This document shows positions 28,597 to 64,000 of a stretch of DNA of 64,000 nucleotides, piece after piece. Source of the stretch: a virus; the IMG/VR virus record IMGVR_UViG_3300031521_001337, positions 149,487-213,486 of that record, one strand, 5' to 3'. Made by a program: the position numbers and the translations under genes. The notes under the pieces are model-generated. The model made no database searches. It was not told the DNA's origin and saw only the letters and a list, made by a program, of their open reading frames with translations. Positions within the stretch are counted from its first letter, which is position 1; each line of letters opens with the position of its first letter.

Positions 28597-30027
28597 CTAA
28601 ACTTCTTCAATAATGAATGATTTATAAGGAGCGAATGCTGCAATACCAGAGTATCCTGCAACGATCAATTTAGATCCTGCGATTGGAGAACTAACGATAC
28701 CACTAGTGATACCATCTACACCACCAACACCTGGATATTTAGATGTTACAAATTCTGCACCTTCTAATGTAAATGCTGCGATAGCTGGTTGATTTGTTGA
28801 AACGTCAGGTGACATATCAAGACAAATACCGTATCCTTTTCTATCATATTCTTTAGTAAGAGCACGATCAACCATGAATGTTACCATATTACCGGCAATT
28901 TCATAAGAAGTGAAAGTTCCACCAACTTTGATAGGATTATCAGCTTTAACCATTGATTGAGCTGCTTTAGAATACATCATTGTTGGAGTTGATCCCCACA
29001 ATTTCAACCAGTCTCCTAAAGTAGAGTTAATTTGACCCCAAAGTCTATCATTAACAATAAATGTGTAACTGTTACCAATTGCATTTGCTGCTTTTTGATT
29101 CATTTGATCAATTACTGTATTGATGATGTTTACATTCAATTTAGCATATTTATACTTAGATGCAAATCTTTCGATTTGAGGAATAAGACCATCACCCGCG
29201 ATAAGTGGACGACCATCTTCTGTAAGTACAGTAGATTTACCATTAACATCCATAGTTGTTTTTCCCCATAGTAAGTGGTTATTTTTAACTGTTTGGAAGT
29301 TTTCAAACAAATCTTTTTCCATTTTGTTTAACTTAAAGATCTTTTCTTTCAAGTCTCCAGCTCCATCTCCTGATGCAATTTTGATAAATTGATCTTCCAT
29401 TTGAGCATAACGAGAAGAGTAAGAAATGTCATTTCTATGTTCTGTGATCCATTGACGATGTTTTTCAATGTTTGATTGATACTTAGTATAACCTTCTTCA
29501 TGGTACTCAGGCATAATATTAGATAAGAAACGAGTTGTTCCACCTACTTGACATGCTGAAGCATCAAGAATTGAAGAGAAATCTGCATCAATTAATTGAA
29601 CCGTATATTCCCAGAATACATCTGCTTTTCTTTGTGGGGTTGCTTTAACAATACATTGCTGACGCGATCCGTCAATTTTGAATGTATCATATTTTTCATA
29701 ATATCTTTCTTTGAAATACATTATGATATCTGCACCACCTGCACCAGTACCCGTTGGTGCTGCTGCGAATTCAACTCTTTTTACGAATTCTACATCAATT
29801 TCCCATTCTACCATTAAGGTATTAAGTGGTTGAAATTTATTAGCTGTTTTAGAGTTGTAATAAATGTTCATTAAGGCTTCTGTTAAGAAAGTCGCTGTAT
29901 TATGTGTATACATGCGAGCCATAACTCCCATCATTTTAGGACGAGTTCCTAAAAGTTTGTAGAAATCCTCATAGGTTCTACTGTGTGCCAATTCTGGCTT
30001 TACGTTAACGTAACTTGCTACTACCAT
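28597..30027 (-). CDS. crAss-like major capsid protein
   Basis: A 476-residue protein starting MVVASYVNVKPELAHSRTYE, with FYKLLGTRPKMMGVMARMY and a C-terminal TLEGAEFVTSKYPGVGG. Length and pattern fit the HK97-fold major capsid protein of Crassvirales. All seven Trp codons are TGG and there is no TGA, unlike many neighbours, which would keep capsid synthesis independent of recoding. It ends in TAG followed at once by TAA, the tandem stop suggesting TAG alone may be weak. It follows the scaffold-like gene by 14 bp and is followed by a GC-rich hairpin. Confidence 0.88.
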   Translation of the reverse strand: MVVASYVNVKPELAHSRTYEDFYKLLGTRPKMMGVMARMYTHNTATFLTEALMNIYYNSKTANKFQPLNTLMVEWEIDVEFVKRVEFAAAPTGTGAGGADIIMYFKERYYEKYDTFKIDGSRQQCIVKATPQRKADVFWEYTVQLIDADFSSILDASACQVGGTTRFLSNIMPEYHEEGYTKYQSNIEKHRQWITEHRNDISYSSRYAQMEDQFIKIASGDGAGDLKEKIFKLNKMEKDLFENFQTVKNNHLLWGKTTMDVNGKSTVLTEDGRPLIAGDGLIPQIERFASKYKYAKLNVNIINTVIDQMNQKAANAIGNSYTFIVNDRLWGQINSTLGDWLKLWGSTPTMMYSKAAQSMVKADNPIKVGGTFTSYEIAGNMVTFMVDRALTKEYDRKGYGICLDMSPDVSTNQPAIAAFTLEGAEFVTSKYPGVGGVDGITSGIVSSPIAGSKLIVAGYSGIAAFAPYKSFIIEEV

Positions 30028-30041
30028 TGTAATCTAATTTT

Positions 30042-31040
30042 TTAAAAATTTAAGTCGTAAATGCTATTTTGTGTTTTGCCGGAAGGATTATTCCTAATAA
30101 CGGCGGGTTTTGGTTTTATCTGTGATTTAAGTTTTGCTATCTCCGACTCATATGCATTCTTCAATGCATCGAATGAATCTTTTCCGTAACGTGAAAACCA
30201 AGCAAGTTCATATAATTTTTTTGGATCATTTAAACTTTTATAAAACTCACTGGTTCCATTTTCGTCTAAATCCAAAATCTGTGAAAGTACTTCATTTTTT
30301 TCATCATCATCTAACTCTATTCCGTAGAATTCTGGCGTTTGCAATGCCACATTAACCATAGTTTCAGAAAATTGGTTAAATTGTTCTTCTCTTTCGGTTT
30401 CAGCTTCTTGCTTTTGAGCTTCGTTATATTGATCTTCTAGTTGTTTATATTCTGTTCTAAGCACACCTACTTTTTTAGTAAATAATGCCTCATCTTGTAA
30501 TTCTTTTTCTAATTCTCTAGCTAATTCTTCTTCGGTTAAATCATACTTTTGTTTTAAGTCTAATAAGAATAATTCTTGATCATCGTAAGAATCAATACTA
30601 TATTCAGATGCAGCTCCTTGTGTAAATTCTTTAATTACTGAAGTTTTATATGCTTCAAGGAATTCTTCAACTGTTAAATTTTCACCTCTAATTTGATTAA
30701 TAAGTTCAATTTCTTCATCATCTAAATCGTGATCTACAGGTTCTTGTTCTGGATCAGCAGCTTTTAAAATTTCTAATTGTTCTTCTTCTGTCAAATCATA
30801 GAAATCAATTTCTTGTTCATTATCGTTTTCATCCAAAACACTAATTTTAGAATTTTCAATTCCAAGTGTTTTAAGATATTTATTTAAAATAAACTCTTCG
30901 GTATCAGGTCCTTCGCTTTTTTCTGCAAAAAAGTCATCGACATCATCTCCAGGAATATCTAATTGTATTTCGGGTTCGTGTTGGGGGTTATCGGGCAAAA
31001 GATCGCCTTCAAAAAGTTCATCAAATTCATCCATATTCAT
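30042..31040 (-). CDS. acidic scaffold-like protein upstream of capsid gene
   Basis: A 332-residue, strongly acidic, Glu/Gln/Asp-rich protein (MNMDEFDELFEGDLLPDNP) with long coiled-coil segments around residues 165-240 (ELARELEKELQDEALF; EEQFNQFSETMV). The short basic C-terminus (KSQIKPKPAVIRNNPSG) could bind the capsid protein. This layout, just before the major capsid gene, is typical of phage scaffolding proteins. No protease motif is visible. It is the first gene after a clear promoter-like box, so it probably begins the capsid transcript. A single TGG Trp and no TGA. Confidence 0.75.
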   Translation of the reverse strand: MNMDEFDELFEGDLLPDNPQHEPEIQLDIPGDDVDDFFAEKSEGPDTEEFILNKYLKTLGIENSKISVLDENDNEQEIDFYDLTEEEQLEILKAADPEQEPVDHDLDDEEIELINQIRGENLTVEEFLEAYKTSVIKEFTQGAASEYSIDSYDDQELFLLDLKQKYDLTEEELARELEKELQDEALFTKKVGVLRTEYKQLEDQYNEAQKQEAETEREEQFNQFSETMVNVALQTPEFYGIELDDDEKNEVLSQILDLDENGTSEFYKSLNDPKKLYELAWFSRYGKDSFDALKNAYESEIAKLKSQIKPKPAVIRNNPSGKTQNSIYDLNF

Positions 31041-32032: not shown

Positions 32033-33136
32033 TTATAATCCACCTTTAGCATAATGATATGTTCCACTATTTGTAGGAGATACTGAAAGTAATGTTAATC
32101 CAGTAAAATAACCTCCGATTATAGTACTAGTTGATTGAGATTGTCCTGATGATATTGTTAAATTAGCTCCTGATACATTAAATGATCTTCCTGCAGCAGC
32201 ATCATAATAACTATAATTAAATGTTATAGTAACATTTGTATTTACAACAACTGCACTCGGTGATCCTGCATATACTGAATACGCATACATTTTTCAATTT
32301 GTACCATCATATAAATAATCTACATATATTTCAACATATGTATCATTAATTACATAATTATCTGCATAAGCTCAAGCATCATTATTATTGTAACTACAAC
32401 AAGCTCCACTAGTTAAAGTAGATCATGTAGTATTATCAGTTACTATTGAAATATCATTTCCATTTCTATATTTAGTACCTCTTAAATTTGATGCCATTCA
32501 TACTTGATTACCAATTTTTACTGTCTTATAAGTATAACCACTATTATCAGTCATTATACCTGAATTAGTAGAATCATCTTTGATTAATCTAACTGAAGCA
32601 CCTGTTGCAGATCCACCACCTTCTAAACTAACTCATTCAGAATCATAATGCATATCCATCATAGTTGAAGTAGATAAATATAATCCAGTCTGTTTTATAT
32701 ATGCAAAATTTCCAGTATTATATCTAAATCCTCCGCCGACAGCAGCAAATTGATATATATCTGTAGCATTAGTATTTGGAGTTAACCAATGAGTTGTATT
32801 TGCTTCTTTCAATTTTCCACCACCTGTAGTTGTTCCTCCAATAGTTGAAACTAAAGTTTCTAATTCTGTTAAAGTTGGAACATGTCATCCACTTGGAGAT
32901 ATATTTCTAGAATCTAATACAGCATATGAATTATATAATCTACCATAACCACCATTAGGTAGTATGTGTTGATAGTTTCTAAAATTATATAAACTGTTTT
33001 TACTACCTACGTAGTTACTATCAAATGCACCAATAGCAGCGGAGAATAACTCAGTTAAACTCCTATTACTACTATCAGCATATATTTCAGTAACTACATC
33101 TCTTTGATTAAAATGATCATTATCTGGAACTGACAT
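32033..33136 (-). CDS. FISUMP-domain adhesin, likely fibre tip
   Basis: A 367-residue protein starting MSVPDNDHFNQRDVV, joined across several TGA codons (32885, 32638, 32294 and others). It contains the FISUMP pattern of Fibrobacter/Bacteroidota surface proteins: GYGRLYNSYAV, ISPSGWHVPTLTELETLVS and VKIGNQVWMASNLRGTKYRN. In SPSGWHVPT the Trp is a TGA, which is direct support for the code. A Gly/Ser/Thr-rich C-terminal domain follows. Its start lies within the end of the fibre gene (17-bp overlap), implying joint expression. Receptor-binding at the crAss-like tail is inferred. Confidence 0.82.
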
Positions 33137-35924
33137 ACTTTTCCTCCAATTGTTTTATTCTTGATTCAGCACTAGCAAGTTTTGCTATTATCAAGTCAAT
33201 GTATTTTACTTTATATTCACCCTCTCTATTTCCAACTACAAATTCACTAAATCCATTAGATAATAAATCTTGAGCAATAGTACCAAATCTTAATTCTTCT
33301 AAGTTATTTTTAAAATTAAATGAAACTAAATTGAGCCTACTATAGTCTTTAATGATTGGTTGAATATTAGTCTTTAAAGTTCTATCTGACGATAAAATAA
33401 AATTACTAGCAGTAACATTACCATTGAAATGAGAATTATCACTTCCATCAATATAAAATGGAGTTGTACCATCGGAAGCATTTCTAATTGAAAATCCAGT
33501 GTTTGAAATTCCTTGTATTGAATTTTTAATATAGTATTGCTTAACTCCTGCTTGTGAACCTTGTAATTGTATTCTTGCCTCACCTCCAACATCATTTCTA
33601 ATTAGCACAGCACTTTTGTTAATTAGAGCAATATCACCTGTTCCACTTTCAGCACTAATATATACTGCATTGCCAGTAAACTGTAAGTAACCTTGTCTAA
33701 CTGTATTTGCTGAATTATAACCACTCAAATAAGCGGCATCAGCAATCATTTTTATTCCCTCACCTGCATAAGTATTAACAGTTCCAGTTGCCATTAAAGT
33801 ACCATTCACTGCCAACTTATACCCTTGGTCAGAAATATATCCAATCCCAGTATTACCATTAGGGCTAATATAAAACCTCCCAATATCGGGTACTGTATTA
33901 GCACTTTGGGTTGATTGAGTAGTAATTGCAAAATCTCCATAAGACTGATAATCTGTATGTATGAACCATTTCCTAGAACTACCATTAGATACATTATGGT
34001 CAAATGATAACATTCCTACCCAACCTGAACCGCTAGGCAATGATAATCTTCCGTTAATTCCCATCCCACCATTAAGAACTAATGCTCCTGTTGATGGTGA
34101 TAGTGATTGAGTTGTGTTTGGTATACTTACTACTCCATTACTTTCAATAGTCAATAAGGGAGTAGTTGCATAATTAAAAGTAAAGGCTTTGTTTCCCCAC
34201 TGTCCAACAGAATTAAAAATCATTGACCCATAATTATCTCCACTACTAATAAAATAGTCAAAAGAAGAACCTGAACCAAATTTTAATTTACCTGAATAAT
34301 TATTAGATGGTATATTAATAGCAAAATAATCACCTCTAGCTGATGCATTTGTCCCATCATCACTTATCAAACTATTTACAAAATTACTCCCATTCCATTT
34401 AGGAATGTAGTTTGTTGATAAACTTGATAAATCTTGTGTAGCAATATTATTTACGCCAATAAAATTTCTAATTTGAGTACTAGTAGCAGGACTCATTCTA
34501 GCATTAGGGGCATCGTATACCATTACATAACTTACCGTAGACGCAAAATCAGCGCCATAGTATTTTAAACCATTTACCATTTCAGCATTCAAATTCCCCA
34601 CCATAGTAGTAGAATTTACAGTTAATGGTGCTGTTCCAGTTGCTACTGTTGATTGTAGTTGAGTTGCATTTACTGTAGAAGTAAAAGTTACTGCTCCTGT
34701 TTTACTTAACCTAAATCTTTCTGTATAAGTATGTGCAATAGCTTCTGTATTGTATGCTCTAGCATCAGAATAATCAATTACTAAATCAGTACCACTTCCA
34801 CTGTATTTGTTGGCAATTCTATAAACTCTTTGGTCAGTTCCACCATCGGCATATAAGTACATAGCACTACCATAATCAGAATCCAATGCTCTTAATTCAA
34901 CACTATGATATGTTACACCAAATTTGCCTTTTCCATACGCTGTAACATCCCCACTAATCCACATATTTGCAGATTGTGCAGAGCTATTTTGGTTTAATAT
35001 GTGGTCGTTATTGTTGGTATAAGCCGATGAACCTAGACCTAACCAAGATTGTATTTGATTTTGTGTAAAATTATAAACATATCCGTTAGAGTAACCTCCT
35101 AGTAAATTAGTAGGTACGGATTGATTAGCAGTTCCATTATATACTGTTCCTAGTGTTATACTAGAGCCTAAAGTCCCACTAGAAGATACAAAGTCTCCAG
35201 TGTTACTACTGGCTGCTGAACCGAATGTTCTAGTAGGTAGTGGAGTATAACCTAAAGCAGTAGTAACCATTCCTGAGTTGATACCAGTTATCCATCCACC
35301 GTAGTTACCAAGATTATTATTAAATTGACTGAGATTAGTAGGTCTTGCTGCTGTCAATGCATAAGGTGCTAAACTACTTGCAGTTATAAAACCATTTGGA
35401 TTAGTTGAATTATAAGGTACATATCCCAAAGCATTAGTAACAAGTGTTGAACTAATTTGTGTTAATGCTCCATTCTCAACACCAATCAATCTATTATTCA
35501 TTTGATTGATTGTGTAGGCATTGAATGTATCAGTTAATGTTGCATTACTGAAAGAACCACCTAAATTAGCATAACCGAATACTGTTTGTATTAGTCCACC
35601 AGATCCAGAACCACCAGAAGTAACACCAAATGCACAAACTTCACCTTTAACAGATAAATTACCATTACTATCTAAAGTCATTAAATCAGTGAATGTTCCA
35701 TCTGTATTAACAGTTGAAAAATTTCAACCATTATCGGTTAACAAATAATTAGAAAGTGGTAATTTTATCACACCATTAGCACCAGCCAAATTAGTTGACT
35801 GTGCTACTAATGATAAATAATTAAGTGGTACATAAGCACTACCAGAACCACCAGAACTATAATTATTAATAGCAGTAGTTGTTGAACCTCTTTGTAAGGC
35901 TATATTTTTACTTTGAAATTCCAT
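33120..35924 (-). CDS. tail fibre with C-terminal S74 intramolecular chaperone (copy 1)
   Basis: A 934-residue fibre from ATG 35924 (MEFQSKNIALQRGSTTTAIN), with a single TGA-encoded Trp at 35724; the other Trp codons are TGG. The long Ser/Gly/Thr/Asn-rich shaft is typical of trimeric fibres. The last 80 residues begin SSDRTLKTNIQPI, the Ser-Lys signature of the peptidase S74 chaperone, which folds the trimer and then cuts itself off, and end in a coiled coil. The shaft from 33395 upward repeats at 62056-64000, but the chaperone there is different. Its 5' half belongs with the siphophage hub gene, its 3' end with the crAss-like cluster. Confidence 0.85.
33395..35339. repeat. long direct repeat in tail-fibre shaft, copy 1
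   Basis: About 1,945 bp that match 62056-64000 with no indel (constant offset 28,661) and no difference in the stretches I compared. The repeat begins exactly at the shaft/chaperone junction and continues past the window end, so copy 2 is truncated by the window. Confidence 0.93.
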
Positions 35925-53040: not shown

Positions 53041-53364
53041 ATGGCACTAACTAAAAGAATCGACTTTTTAAACGGAGTAGTAACAGAATCAGCTTATATA
53101 GTTGTAAGCAATATTACTATTGACTGAGATAATAAAACTGCTAATATCAATGTAAAAACATATCTAGATAAAGCAACAAAAGAAGCAGGTTTGCAACCTA
53201 TGCAAACAGAATATCTTCATATCTCAGATAATGCACTTCCAATGCAAACAGAAACACCGGTACTAAACTTTACAAATCATTTTTCTGATGGTAATACTAA
53301 AGTTGATGCTGAAACTTATCTGTTGACACTGGATAAATACAAAGATTGTACAATAGTTGAATAA
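53041..53364 (+). CDS. hypothetical early protein
   Basis: A 107-residue beta-rich protein starting MALTKRIDFLNGVVTESAYI, with a TGA-encoded Trp in ITIDWDNKT. The composition looks like a small beta-sandwich. It is followed with no gap by the GNAT-like gene (ATG directly after TAA). Function unknown. Confidence 0.62.
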
Positions 53365-53725: not shown

Positions 53726-53745
53726 GGTTTGTAGTGGTGAAACAT

Positions 53746-54102
53746 TTAGTTTTCTTTAATCTCCTTGATTATTTGAAATAAATGAATTAAATCTATACGA
53801 ATTTGCCGATTTACTTCATCTCTAAAGTCAATAAATATTTCCTTACTTCTTTTAGATGAATTATTTCTGGTTGAATTTGTGTAACTAGATATAACATAAC
53901 TAACTTCTTTTCCACAAGTATGTGAAAGTGAAGAAACAGTATCAAAAGATACATAATCAGGACTAAATTCACGATATAATTCAAAAACTTTATCCGATAA
54001 TGTATTAACGATACGTTTATAATTATAACCATCACTTTCTTCTAATAAACCATTATATAAATGATTTATTTCTATTAATAATTCTTGTTCATTTTGTTTC
54101 AT
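53746..54102 (-). CDS. hypothetical protein
   Basis: A 118-residue, Trp-free helical protein starting MKQNEQELLIEINHLYNGLL with a Ser/Asn/Arg-rich loop (YTNSTRNNSSKRSKEI). It is a lone leftward gene with its own promoter-like box and upstream tandem repeats. In position it could be a lysogeny regulator, but no DNA-binding motif is clear. Confidence 0.6.
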   Translation of the reverse strand: MKQNEQELLIEINHLYNGLLEESDGYNYKRIVNTLSDKVFELYREFSPDYVSFDTVSSLSHTCGKEVSYVISSYTNSTRNNSSKRSKEIFIDFRDEVNRQIRIDLIHLFQIIKEIKEN

Positions 54103-54129
54103 ATTATTTCATATTTTAATGTTTATATG

Positions 54130-54188
54130 CAAATCTAATAAAACTAATCTACTTACTTACAGATATATAGTTAAATGTATAGTTAAAT
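54130..54188 (-). promoter_or_regulatory. promoter-like box with tandem 12-bp repeats
   Basis: TAGATTTG on the minus strand (54130-54137) fits TAnnTTTG. Just upstream, TATAGTTAAAT is repeated with a 12-bp period (54166-54176 and 54178-54188). This may be an operator or activator site for the gene ending at 53746. The rest of the 54.1-54.29 kb gap holds nothing else I can identify. Confidence 0.42.
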
Positions 54189-54290
54189 ATGTAATCAAAT
54201 CTATCTACTTAGTACTACATTAAATTCTACTTTATGAATAGTTTAAATTAGAGATGTTCTAGCAGAAATTACAGTATAATTAGAATGAAT

Positions 54291-54321
54291 AAAAAGCCTA
54301 CTAATTTCTAGTAGGCTTTTT
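54291..54321. terminator. terminator after serine integrase
   Basis: AAAAAGCCTACTA-ATTT-CTAGTAGGCTTTTT directly follows the integrase stop, with runs suited to both strands. Confidence 0.87.
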
Positions 54322-54326
54322 CTGGT

Positions 54327-56048
54327 TTAATCTATTTTCTTTAAATAGTTGTATTTCTTCATTATTTCCCAAATATCAGTATAACTATATTCACCAAATA
54401 CTTCATCATTAAACAGCTTATTATTTGAAGAAGTAACTGTAAAATCTTTACCCTTTAAAATCTCTCTAACTTCTTCTGGTGCATTAAAAATATTATTAAA
54501 TGTTACATCATCATCATCAATAATACAATATGAATTTACTTTGTATTGACTATTAAAAAGGATATTGAATGTTAACCCTACTTTTAGTTTTACCTGCATC
54601 AGTTTAATATAATCAGTATATCTATATACATTTACCACCTCAATTAAACTATTACAAACCTGTTTCTTTTCTTCTAAACTTAGTTCCCTAGTTTTTAAAT
54701 AATCAAACTCAAATTCTGAATTAATTCTATCATTTAGTAAAATGATTTTAGATTGTATTTCTGTGATAATTTTATTAAATCTGTCTTTCTCGGTTGTGAT
54801 TCTATGTTTTTGTTCTAAAGCATCAGCATCATTATAGAACCCTTTAGCATATCCAGTATTAACTTTAGAAATTTGATTATCTAAATCAGTGATGTTTTTA
54901 TTCAGTTCAGTTAATGTAGTTTCATTCTTTATCAATTCAAGTTTAGATTGTTCTTTATCATCTACACACTTCTTTTTAAATGAATCATATTCATAAATAC
55001 CTTTAATAGCAGTCCAAACTAAATTATCTGCCATTGTAATAGTGAAACTACCATTTTTACAACCTACTTTGTTGTTTATATTGGCTCTAATATCACCATC
55101 TTTATAGACCCTTACACCATTATTATTACCTAAAACATAGTATTTATTACATTGACCACATTTTAAAATACCTCTTAATATTGCGGGGTCTACTGCTTTA
55201 CTCTTATCACCACTATTTATATTAATTGTAAACCGTTCTTGAACTGCATCAAACAAATTCTTTTCAATAATAGCATCAACATCAAAATATCTTACTGATT
55301 TTTCAGCAGGTGTAGTTGCAGTTGCTTTTTTAGTTATTGATTCTAGTTTACCTTTGCCATAATATACAGGATTTTTGAGCATTTGATAAATTGTGCCTTT
55401 TACCCAGATAATATTTGTTTTACCACTCTTTAAAGGTATATTCTTTGAATTAAATATGTCTGCTATATATTGTGTGTCTTTACCAGAATGAAATAGATCA
55501 AATGCTAATTTTACAGATTCTGCTTCTAACTCATTAACATATAAATACTTATCAATAATATCATATCCAAAAGGTGCATTATTAGTATAACTATGACCTT
55601 TTCTAAGTGCATTTTCTTTACCAGATTTGAATTTAGATTTTAAATTCTCAGCATCCATTTGAGCAAATACACCTAACATATATAAATATATAGATGCAAC
55701 ACCCGATATTTTACCATCATCATCTAAAGTAATAATATTCTTATCTTTAAAATGAATGCAAACACCTTTTTCTGCAAATTCATTTACTAATGCAATAAAA
55801 TCTGATGCTTTTCTACTTAATCTGGATATATCCCAAACAAATATTTTATCAACATCATCACTAGTTAATTTTCGCATTTCTGTTAATTGCTCTCTGGTGT
55901 CCATATCTAAAACACCAGATGCTTTTTCCTCAAACACTTTAGTTATTTCATAACCAAAACCGTTTGCAAGCAATCTTAATTCTACTTCTTGACGTTCATA
56001 ATTTTGATCTGTAGTAGAAACTCGTAAATAAATAGCTGCTTTTTTCAT
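54327..56048 (-). CDS. large serine recombinase (phage integrase)
   Basis: A 573-residue protein starting MKKAAIYLRVSTTDQNYERQ, with the catalytic Ser11. DKIFVWDISRLSRKASDF supplies the conserved resolvase Arg-rich motif. A recombinase domain (NAPFGYDIIDKYLYVNELEA), a zinc-ribbon (LKCGQCNKYY with a later GCKNG) and a long coiled coil near residues 370-430 complete the large serine integrase layout. All four Trp codons are TGG and there is no TGA, so host ribosomes can make it without recoding. Transcribed leftward from next to a 54-bp dyad likely to be attP. Confidence 0.93.
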   Translation of the reverse strand: MKKAAIYLRVSTTDQNYERQEVELRLLANGFGYEITKVFEEKASGVLDMDTREQLTEMRKLTSDDVDKIFVWDISRLSRKASDFIALVNEFAEKGVCIHFKDKNIITLDDDGKISGVASIYLYMLGVFAQMDAENLKSKFKSGKENALRKGHSYTNNAPFGYDIIDKYLYVNELEAESVKLAFDLFHSGKDTQYIADIFNSKNIPLKSGKTNIIWVKGTIYQMLKNPVYYGKGKLESITKKATATTPAEKSVRYFDVDAIIEKNLFDAVQERFTININSGDKSKAVDPAILRGILKCGQCNKYYVLGNNNGVRVYKDGDIRANINNKVGCKNGSFTITMADNLVWTAIKGIYEYDSFKKKCVDDKEQSKLELIKNETTLTELNKNITDLDNQISKVNTGYAKGFYNDADALEQKHRITTEKDRFNKIITEIQSKIILLNDRINSEFEFDYLKTRELSLEEKKQVCNSLIEVVNVYRYTDYIKLMQVKLKVGLTFNILFNSQYKVNSYCIIDDDDVTFNNIFNAPEEVREILKGKDFTVTSSNNKLFNDEVFGEYSYTDIWEIMKKYNYLKKID

Positions 56049-56090
56049 TATCTTTGTGCTTTAAATATGTACAAAGATATATTTATTTTA

Positions 56091-56144
56091 TGATACGTAC
56101 AATAGAAATTGACCGCAAGCGTTCAATTGTTTTTGTACGTATTA
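56091..56144. other. candidate attP site
   Basis: Two 26-bp arms (56091-56116 and 56119-56144) match as an inverted repeat at 21 of 26 positions without gaps, around a central AA at 56117-56118 (CGC-AA-GCG). Outer arms share ACGTACAA. Size, symmetry, non-palindromic central dinucleotide and position 43 bp before the integrase start fit a serine-integrase attP. A regulator's operator is the alternative. The site is undivided, so this copy is not in an integrated (attL/attR) state. Confidence 0.62.
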
Positions 56145-56172
56145 TCAATTAATTGTAAATCAGTAGGTTATA

Positions 56173-56625
56173 ATGGAATTAAATTCTCATAATAAGAAAG
56201 AATATCCACCAATGCACACTGTGGAGCATATTTTAAACCAAACAATGGTTAAAATGTTTGGTTGTGATAGATCTAAAAATAGTCATATAGAGCGCAAAAA
56301 GAGTAAATGCAACTACTTTTTAAATGAAACACCAACAGAAGAACAAATAATAGAAATTGAAAAACAAGTTAATAATATTATAGATCAAAATCTATCTGTT
56401 ACTAGTGCATTAGTAGCACGTTCAGAAGTACCAGTTAGCGTTGATTTAAGCAAACTTCCAGAAGATGCTAGTGAAACACTAAGGTTGGTGTATATAGGTT
56501 CTTATGATGTTTGTGCTTGTATTGGTGAACACGTTGAAAATACAGCCGAAATAGGCAGGTTTAAAATAGTCAGTTCAGATTATAATGATAATCAATTTAG
56601 AATAAGATTTAAGCTTGAAATTTAG
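56173..56625 (+). CDS. AlaX-like tRNA-editing (SAD) domain protein
   Basis: A 150-residue protein starting MELNSHNKKEYPPMHTVEHI. The zinc-binding H-x3-H (His15, His19) and C-x3-H (Cys116, His120) pairs are those of the second additional domain of AlaRS/ThrRS and free-standing AlaX, which deacylate mischarged tRNA. FGCDRSKNSHIERKKSKCNY and LPEDASETLRLVYIG closely follow a small chromosomal Bacteroidota protein I recognise. It has no Trp. It faces away from the integrase, beside the attP-like site, so a captured host gene (moron) is likely. Confidence 0.75.
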   Translation: MELNSHNKKEYPPMHTVEHILNQTMVKMFGCDRSKNSHIERKKSKCNYFLNETPTEEQIIEIEKQVNNIIDQNLSVTSALVARSEVPVSVDLSKLPEDASETLRLVYIGSYDVCACIGEHVENTAEIGRFKIVSSDYNDNQFRIRFKLEI

Positions 56626-56919
56626 TTTTTACGTGAATTATGTAGTAAATGAGGTTTAAGATTTTTGAAAAAATACCTCTCGTGTAAGGGAGGGAGGGGT
56701 GAGGTTTACTCCATTAGTTAATAACATTTTGACCCCATATGGGGGTGTGACGTTAACAATCAACGCTTTGATCTAACAATCAGCATATTAACATATATTT
56801 ATTGTAAAATAATATGTTAGTTACACTATAATAACTATGTTCTAAATATTAAGTGTATGATAGTTTTTTGTTGTAATTATTTTGTTAACTTTGTGGTTAT
56901 TAACCAATAACAAAATAAT
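56626..56919. promoter_or_regulatory. complex noncoding region with G-rich tract, palindrome and promoter box
   Basis: This 294-bp gap holds a G-rich run on the plus strand (GGGAGGGAGGGGTGAGG, 56688-56704) flanked by ACCTC/GAGGT, a perfect CCCCATATGGGG palindrome at 56733-56744, and several GTTAAC/GTTATT motifs, including GTTATT-AACC-AATAAC. TAACTTTG at 56886-56893 fits the -7 box for the following HNH gene. It is unusually GC-rich in places for this genome and looks like an operator region. Confidence 0.45.
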
Positions 56920-57414
56920 ATGTGAGAAGTAAAAACAATTGCAAACTATCCAAACTACACCATAAGTAACACAGGTGTAGTATTTAATTTAAGAACACAA
57001 AAGATAATGAAGTTGCACCCAGATAAAGACGGCTACTGAGTACTTAATCTTTCAAGCAACGGACACAAAAGATCTATGAGAGTACATAGATTAGTAGCAG
57101 AAGCGTTTATATGAACCAATGATACAACACTAACAGTTAATCATATAAATGGAATTAAAGAAGATAACACAGTTGAAAATTTAGAATGACTAAGTAATAT
57201 AGATAATATTAAACACGCCTTTAGAACAGGACTAACACCAATCAATCCTAAAGGGGAAAGATCAAGACGATCAAAGTTAACTAATACTGATGCTAATCAA
57301 ATAAGAGAATGAATAAGTAATAATACACATACTCGTAAGGAAATAGCAGATATGTTTAATATTTGTTTATCATCAGTAAGTAATATTATCAACTACAAAA
57401 CATATAAAGACTAA
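56920..57414 (+). CDS. NUMOD4/HNH homing endonuclease
   Basis: A 164-residue protein starting MWEVKTIANYPNYTISNTGV, with RVHRLVAEAFIW and VNHINGIKEDNTVENLEWLS (HNH_3), then a helix-turn-helix (HTRKEIADMFNICLSSVSNI). All five Trp codons are TGA, including the second codon, so it cannot be made at all under the standard code. It shares architecture with the gene at 50.0 kb. It has its own promoter-like box and terminator, and lies among TGA-free genes. Confidence 0.85.
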
Positions 57415-57438: not shown

Positions 57439-57470
57439 AAAAAGGCTGCTACATAATTGTAACAGCCTTT
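57439..57470. terminator. bidirectional terminator between convergent genes
   Basis: AAAAGGCTG...CAGCCTTTT with inner TACA/TGTA pairing, located between the rightward HNH gene and the leftward gene ending at 57493. Confidence 0.82.
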
Positions 57471-61711: not shown

Positions 61712-64000
61712 TTATTTATTTTTTAAAGTATTTATTTCTTGTGTTAGTTCTTGAATTGCTCCGATTAAATATGGTATTAACTTGATATAATCAACTGATA
61801 AAAATTCATCGTTATAAATGTTATGTACTAGGTTTGGAAGTACTTCTTTTAATTGCTGAGCAATAACACCAACATCTGTTTTTTCATCCTTATTTGGGTT
61901 TAATTCTTTAGCTTTTTCATTCCAATTATATTGCACTGGATTTAATTTATTGATTACGTCCAAAGAATTATTTAATGGTTGAATGTTTTCTTTTAACCGT
62001 TCATCAGATGCACTATAAGCTACTATTTCACCCGCTGCTATTACATTTCCATTTGAAATAAAATTACTAGCAGTAACATTACCATTGAAATGAGAATTAT
62101 CACTTCCATCAATATAAAATGGAGTTGTACCATCGGAAGCATTTCTAATTGAAAATCCAGTGTTTGAAATTCCTTGTATTGAATTTTTAATATAGTATTG
62201 CTTAACTCCTGCTTGTGAACCTTGTAATTGTATTCTTGCCTCACCTCCAACATCATTTCTAATTAGCACAGCACTTTTGTTAATTAGAGCAATATCACCT
62301 GTTCCACTTTCAGCACTAATATATACTGCATTGCCAGTAAACTGTAAGTAACCTTGTCTAACTGTATTTGCTGAATTATAACCACTCAAATAAGCGGCAT
62401 CAGCAATCATTTTTATTCCCTCACCTGCATAAGTATTAACAGTTCCAGTTGCCATTAAAGTACCATTCACTGCCAACTTATACCCTTGGTCAGAAATATA
62501 TCCAATCCCAGTATTACCATTAGGGCTAATATAAAACCTCCCAATATCGGGTACTGTATTAGCACTTTGGGTTGATTGAGTAGTAATTGCAAAATCTCCA
62601 TAAGACTGATAATCTGTATGTATGAACCATTTCCTAGAACTACCATTAGATACATTATGGTCAAATGATAACATTCCTACCCAACCTGAACCGCTAGGCA
62701 ATGATAATCTTCCGTTAATTCCCATCCCACCATTAAGAACTAATGCTCCTGTTGATGGTGATAGTGATTGAGTTGTGTTTGGTATACTTACTACTCCATT
62801 ACTTTCAATAGTCAATAAGGGAGTAGTTGCATAATTAAAAGTAAAGGCTTTGTTTCCCCACTGTCCAACAGAATTAAAAATCATTGACCCATAATTATCT
62901 CCACTACTAATAAAATAGTCAAAAGAAGAACCTGAACCAAATTTTAATTTACCTGAATAATTATTAGATGGTATATTAATAGCAAAATAATCACCTCTAG
63001 CTGATGCATTTGTCCCATCATCACTTATCAAACTATTTACAAAATTACTCCCATTCCATTTAGGAATGTAGTTTGTTGATAAACTTGATAAATCTTGTGT
63101 AGCAATATTATTTACGCCAATAAAATTTCTAATTTGAGTACTAGTAGCAGGACTCATTCTAGCATTAGGGGCATCGTATACCATTACATAACTTACCGTA
63201 GACGCAAAATCAGCGCCATAGTATTTTAAACCATTTACCATTTCAGCATTCAAATTCCCCACCATAGTAGTAGAATTTACAGTTAATGGTGCTGTTCCAG
63301 TTGCTACTGTTGATTGTAGTTGAGTTGCATTTACTGTAGAAGTAAAAGTTACTGCTCCTGTTTTACTTAACCTAAATCTTTCTGTATAAGTATGTGCAAT
63401 AGCTTCTGTATTGTATGCTCTAGCATCAGAATAATCAATTACTAAATCAGTACCACTTCCACTGTATTTGTTGGCAATTCTATAAACTCTTTGGTCAGTT
63501 CCACCATCGGCATATAAGTACATAGCACTACCATAATCAGAATCCAATGCTCTTAATTCAACACTATGATATGTTACACCAAATTTGCCTTTTCCATACG
63601 CTGTAACATCCCCACTAATCCACATATTTGCAGATTGTGCAGAGCTATTTTGGTTTAATATGTGGTCGTTATTGTTGGTATAAGCCGATGAACCTAGACC
63701 TAACCAAGATTGTATTTGATTTTGTGTAAAATTATAAACATATCCGTTAGAGTAACCTCCTAGTAAATTAGTAGGTACGGATTGATTAGCAGTTCCATTA
63801 TATACTGTTCCTAGTGTTATACTAGAGCCTAAAGTCCCACTAGAAGATACAAAGTCTCCAGTGTTACTACTGGCTGCTGAACCGAATGTTCTAGTAGGTA
63901 GTGGAGTATAACCTAAAGCAGTAGTAACCATTCCTGAGTTGATACCAGTTATCCATCCACCGTAGTTACCAAGATTATTATTAAATTGACTGAGATTAGT
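61712..64000 (-). CDS. tail fibre with S74 chaperone (copy 2, 5' end outside window)
   Basis: At least 763 residues, open to the window end. The shaft from 62056 upward is identical in the compared stretches to that of the gene at 33120-35924. The C-terminal domain is different: YSASDERLKENIQPL is a classic S74 Ser-Lys motif, followed by NPVQYNWNEKAKELN and VGVIAQQLKEVLPNLV. No TGA in the visible part. With the following tail and lysis genes it represents the siphophage's own fibre ending, while copy 1 carries the crAss-like ending. Confidence 0.87.
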   Translation of the reverse strand, partial: TNLSQFNNNLGNYGGWITGINSGMVTTALGYTPLPTRTFGSAASSNTGDFVSSSGTLGSSITLGTVYNGTANQSVPTNLLGGYSNGYVYNFTQNQIQSWLGLGSSAYTNNNDHILNQNSSAQSANMWISGDVTAYGKGKFGVTYHSVELRALDSDYGSAMYLYADGGTDQRVYRIANKYSGSGTDLVIDYSDARAYNTEAIAHTYTERFRLSKTGAVTFTSTVNATQLQSTVATGTAPLTVNSTTMVGNLNAEMVNGLKYYGADFASTVSYVMVYDAPNARMSPATSTQIRNFIGVNNIATQDLSSLSTNYIPKWNGSNFVNSLISDDGTNASARGDYFAINIPSNNYSGKLKFGSGSSFDYFISSGDNYGSMIFNSVGQWGNKAFTFNYATTPLLTIESNGVVSIPNTTQSLSPSTGALVLNGGMGINGRLSLPSGSGWVGMLSFDHNVSNGSSRKWFIHTDYQSYGDFAITTQSTQSANTVPDIGRFYISPNGNTGIGYISDQGYKLAVNGTLMATGTVNTYAGEGIKMIADAAYLSGYNSANTVRQGYLQFTGNAVYISAESGTGDIALINKSAVLIRNDVGGEARIQLQGSQAGVKQYYIKNSIQGISNTGFSIRNASDGTTPFYIDGSDNSHFNGNVTASNFISNGNVIAAGEIVAYSASDERLKENIQPLNNSLDVINKLNPVQYNWNEKAKELNPNKDEKTDVGVIAQQLKEVLPNLVHNIYNDEFLSVDYIKLIPYLIGAIQELTQEINTLKNK
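62056..64000. repeat. long direct repeat in tail-fibre shaft, copy 2
   Basis: Second copy of 33395-35339, same orientation, offset 28,661 bp, continuing to the last base of the window. Confidence 0.93.

Follow-up and report, generated by a model that had tools for sequence, protein, structure and literature searches.

The window analysed here, the terminal 64 kb of the 213,486-bp IMG/VR record IMGVR_UViG_3300031521_001337, carries an integration cassette (53731-56649) made up of a small gene, a large serine integrase, an imperfect DNA dyad and an alaX-like gene. The integrase (573 aa; 54327-56048, minus strand) contains the Resolvase catalytic domain (PF00239, E 5.3e-28, residues 4-152) followed by the Recombinase domain (PF07508, E 1.5e-15, residues 175-273) and gives a distant match to the A118 integrase structure. 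Its zinc ribbon (PF13408) reaches E 9e-4 and 20 bits, below the gathering score of 25.3, with the KCGQC cysteines visible in the protein. Relatives of the integrase in phages and plasmids are all less than 30% identical, and genome searches at the family and class level found no close relative. Directly beyond the dyad, on its P' side, the plus strand encodes a full-length alaX-like (tRNA_SAD) gene (56173-56625). Its 150-aa product matches PF07973 (E 1.2e-10) and AlaX-type structures and has both zinc motifs, HxxxH (HTVEH) and CxxxH (CIGEH), which make it AlaX-like; at 69 bits against the AlaXM model NF040865, whose cut-off is 300, it falls outside AlaXM. The phage protein is 59% identical to the chromosomal alaX product of a Paludibacter MAG.

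Between the integrase and alaX lies a 54-bp imperfect dyad (56091-56144), in which the P arm (56091-56116) and the P' arm (56119-56144) read TGATACGTACAATAGAAATTGACCGC and GCGTTCAATTGTTTTTGTACGTATTA on either side of a central AA (56117-56118). The initial annotation had described 26-bp arms that match at 21 positions around this AA next to the integrase start, and we confirmed this pairing. In 60 dinucleotide-preserving shuffles of the window the best pairing was 19/26, and 20,000 shuffled versions of the 124-bp intergenic spacer likewise stayed below 21/26; the window itself holds two sites at or above this level, the dyad and a hairpin at 57455. A repeat search lengthens the dyad to 39-nt arms that are 77% complementary. 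The core, a non-palindromic dinucleotide, is located 69 bp upstream of the integrase ATG, so that the element has the form of an attP: an imperfect dyad of about 50 bp adjoining the integrase. Within the arms, a 10-bp block at positions 15-24 is fully paired and matches in position the segment of an attP half-site assigned to the zinc domain (bp 16-24 of 25; PMC3783163), which further supports the idea that the dyad is an attP. Judged from these features and from the junction described below, the dyad is very probably the site at which the phage DNA is inserted.

The attP is unbroken in this record, and two more IMG/VR contigs carry it unbroken and identical. The siphophage unit to which it belongs (35343-64000, about 28.7 kb if closed at a fibre repeat) encodes its own TerS, TerL, portal, protease, capsid and tape measure and is colinear with two sister prophages, L019 and G303. 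The other 176 kb of the record have separate portal-like and terminase genes, a tRNA array, a tmRNA and crAss-like relatives. Both joins between siphophage and foreign DNA fall within a tail-fibre repeat of about 1.95 kb. Copy 1 (33395-35342, minus strand) has crAss-like DNA to its left and siphophage DNA to its right, copy 2 (62056-64000, minus strand) forms the end of the record, and the two are 100% identical over 1945 bp in a self-comparison; a hybrid fibre ORF (33120-35924) spans the join at copy 1. The view that attP had no part in the joins between siphophage and crAss-like DNA is thus supported, as the initial annotation had held, which discounted the integrase as the agent linking the siphophage to other DNA in this molecule.

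The same annotation had favoured homologous recombination or chimerism at the fibre repeat, and this view is supported by contig L144 from another metagenome, in which crAss-like DNA runs through the repeat into crAss-like DNA without any siphophage, and by the complete sister prophages, which consist of siphophage only. Four further contigs (L124, L130, L142 and L145) end 127-130 bp into the repeat, as expected of a k-mer branch point. The overlapping ends of the record would allow a different reading, a real 205-kb circular phage in which the siphophage has recombined into the crAss-like genome at the repeat. The repeat is present in both phages, and in G002 and L128, from other metagenomes, siphophage is joined to crAss-like DNA through it, which keeps true recombinants possible. 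We rejected the circle after seeing L144 and the siphophage-only prophages and regard it as unlikely: the crAss-like relatives measure 172-178 kb, each part has a terminase and portal of its own, several contigs stop at the presumed branch point, and the record ends are identical except for five bases, all in the first 27, beside a branch to a hisB-type sister strain. An assembly chimera at the repeat is, in our judgement, likelier than a rare true recombinant. Caution is warranted with the 213-kb record, which appears to be two phages joined at a common tail-fibre repeat.

The strongest evidence on the function of the dyad comes from a relative. Among 393 Bacteroidales genomes, one, the MAG G439, contains a close relative of the integrase (66% identity over residues 1-253), the single junction-yielding hit in about 1,090 genomes searched at the family, order and class levels. 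Its contig L117, which breaks off within the integrase, shows in order the integrase start, a 69-70-bp spacer and arm, AA, the 3' portion of an alaX gene of the host, proC and an argD-like gene, these gene names being read from translations. The left arm and core of L117 are identical to the P arm and core of the window at 20 of 28 positions, a level reached at one of about 2.4 million host DNA positions, and the distance from integrase to core is 70 bp as against 69 bp in the window. Similarity to alaX amounts to 10/40 to the left of AA and 39/60 to its right, and phage similarity stops exactly where host alaX similarity starts. By this comparison the L117 junction is a natural attR with its crossover at the AA singled out in the initial annotation, whose claim of an attP it bears out.

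In G439 the host alaX is cut at its HIER-KKSKC codons and its first part is lost; neither that 5' part, nor the attL partner of the junction, nor a second full alaX was found in this incomplete genome. The main argument is built on this one natural junction, from a relative and not from this phage; no integrated copy of the window phage was seen, and IMG/VR scans for each half of the dyad by itself, as expected at an integrated junction, returned intact sites only.

A probable attB sharing the AA core, for which the initial annotation had suggested searching host genomes, came to light in Paludibacter, the putative host, where it occupies the corresponding alaX codons. We scanned 1.23 Mb of Bacteroidales DNA with the motif GCGNTCAAT inverted about AA, the inner part of attP that is common to both arms, and obtained six AA-centred sites with at most 4/16 mismatches and none better, one of which is formed by the HIER-KKSKC codons of alaX in a Paludibacter MAG. 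This candidate attB is centred on GAGCGC AA GAAATC, with the outer zinc-domain motif only weakly present. The counterpart of its core in the phage alaX (56296-56297) has degraded half-sites, with 8/16 mismatches where the host gene has 4/16. The integrase may therefore act poorly on the alaX of its own phage, which is suggestive only, because the arm pair of the L117 attR likewise scores eight mismatches.

We propose that two integrase dimers would bind attP and the site in host alaX, and that cutting at the shared AA and strand exchange would yield attR and attL. The attR would comprise the integrase, the P arm, AA and the 3' part of host alaX, with the predicted sequence ...ATTGACCGC AA GAAATCAAAG..., and the attL would comprise the promoter and some 43 codons of host alaX, AA, the P' arm and the phage alaX, with the predicted sequence ...GAGCGC AA GCGTTCAATTG... 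at the junction. Host alaX would be split, and its attR fragment would lack the N-terminal zinc-binding HxxxH motif. The phage alaX, which has the same orientation and lies beyond attP, would be placed behind the promoter of the host gene and take over; the attL so predicted reads through 43 host codons, a short tail and a stop before the complete phage gene. In this model the window integrase presumably has the same alaX target as its relative, and the phage alaX would be expressed from the host promoter as a functional protein. The phage gene probably stands in for the host alaX that integration interrupts, so that the phage appears to replace, and not merely repair, the gene that it interrupts. 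Neither alaX as the likely target nor the neighbouring gene as its likely replacement copy had been part of the initial annotation.

A correct attP could also be paired with an integrase that targets another gene, the phage alaX being plain cargo or a remnant of an imprecise excision. Phages do acquire neighbouring genes, and the one junction at hand stems from a relative, but we consider this improbable given that the nearest integrase has no known target other than alaX itself, that the host alaX site fits the attP motif, and that the phage alaX is full length and correctly oriented. Far less probable is that the dyad serves as an operator or divergent-promoter element for the integrase and alaX and is no recombination site. 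It does lie between two divergent genes, and on the side facing the integrase both strands carry Bacteroidota-type TATCTTTG boxes, but in L117 this arm breaks off precisely at the core, where host alaX takes over, and the spacing between dyad and integrase resembles that of the attP of hisB-type relatives. A transcribed hairpin or terminator is scarcely credible, for although the dyad RNA folds better than shuffles (z -5.3), it has no terminator-like tail, lies between divergent starts and is explained by the natural attR. We assign a probability of about 0.9 to the full explanation, in which the dyad is the attP of the adjacent serine integrase, alaX is the target, the phage alaX takes over, and the fibre joins are unrelated to attP.

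The target gene of A118 is comK, and coding genes are also entered by phage 21 and e14, at icd, and by SpyCI, at mutL, where the element limits or regulates the damage. The window phage resembles phage 21/e14 and SpyCI in combining coding-gene integration with limited damage; those elements supply or displace a gene end, whereas the window phage seems to supply a whole gene behind the host promoter. The A118/LI-type attP of Listeria is a pseudo-palindrome of 25-bp half-sites with a central dinucleotide and an outer zinc-domain block (PMC3783163). The site described here is similar in its pseudo-palindromic form, its central dinucleotide, its outer conserved block and its intragenic target. It differs from the A118/LI systems in having an integrase that is only distantly related by sequence, alaX as the probable target and a full copy of that gene in the phage. 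With the large serine recombinases with predicted att sites (PMC10083194), whose targets were deduced from attL/attR, the system has in common site-specific integration into a conserved coding sequence. In the literature searched, the tables of that survey apart, alaX was not met with as a target. The serine integrase, its attP, its core and a probable attB in a conserved coding motif together form a candidate integration tool for Bacteroidales, for which few are available.

The sister prophages share with the window phage a TGA-recoded siphophage backbone, a serine integrase and a dyad attP, and they show the position of attP in this phage group. In the Paludibacter MAG L019, a 36-kb prophage separates hisB from a pafA-like gene, its neighbour in other genomes. 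G303 (IMGVR 3300031722_000097) is a second complete hisB-type prophage with both host flanks present. When their P and P' halves are joined, the rebuilt attP dyads pair at 17-18/26 around a core AC, 75 bp upstream of the integrase start. Unlike the window phage, both have an integrase only 27% identical to that described here (621 aa in L019) and integrate in the 3' end of hisB, with the core within the end of the gene, and they restore that end only. DNA similarity between the window and G303 stops at 53730 and restarts at 56650, and that with L019 stops at 53364. The right border of the cassette (56650-56739, plus strand) is a 90-bp stretch 91-93% identical to L019, G303 and record positions 1253-1342. 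These borders suggest that a single cassette comprising integrase, attP and target repair is exchanged. A more doubtful extension is that the group swaps whole cassettes, carrying either a hisB end or a full alaX under the host promoter, and that, with alaX guarding the accuracy of translation and TGA being read as tryptophan by the phage, the alaX exchange might allow the prophage to adjust host translation and not simply to mend the damage.

Bacterial hisB, whose protein is 99% identical to that of L019, occupies the initial 1.08 kb of the record, and the first 1.6 kb hold the host hisB junction of a sister prophage, which the initial annotation had not noted. We rejected this junction as an att junction of the window phage, as it belongs to a G303-like prophage with another integrase. 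The record start (L002:1-1348), with hisB and the left junction of the sister siphophage, is 99% identical to G303 and chimerically attached. A 155-bp stretch with repeated AAATGATACG units (L002:1438-1592 and L003:14327-14481, record 34327-34481; 98.7% identical) is further sequence common to a hisB-type prophage and the crAss-like phage.

The 1,945-bp tail-fibre segment that the crAss-like phage and the temperate siphophage have in common without a single difference points to a very recent fibre exchange between unrelated phages, which probably have the same host. Many siphophage genes, early and late, contain in-frame TGA read as tryptophan, which the integrase and the phage alaX lack. No suppressor tRNA was found in the siphophage (35343-64000) or in the prophages L019 and G303, the lone tRNA of G303 being apparently Glu. 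A tRNA with anticodon TCA (record 30014-30087) is encoded by the co-assembled crAss-like phage (record 8184-182880), and the temperate siphophage might need a co-resident phage for the reading of its lytic genes. An HNH homing endonuclease gene adjoining the cassette border (56920-57414) has five in-frame TGA codons at tryptophan positions, and a counterpart at the same place is missing from G303 and L019. Beside the hisB-type integrase of L019, a group of TGA-free genes (L104 10195-14950, L019 contig 414195-418948), among them one for a 715-aa protein, is possibly defence cargo expressed from the prophage.
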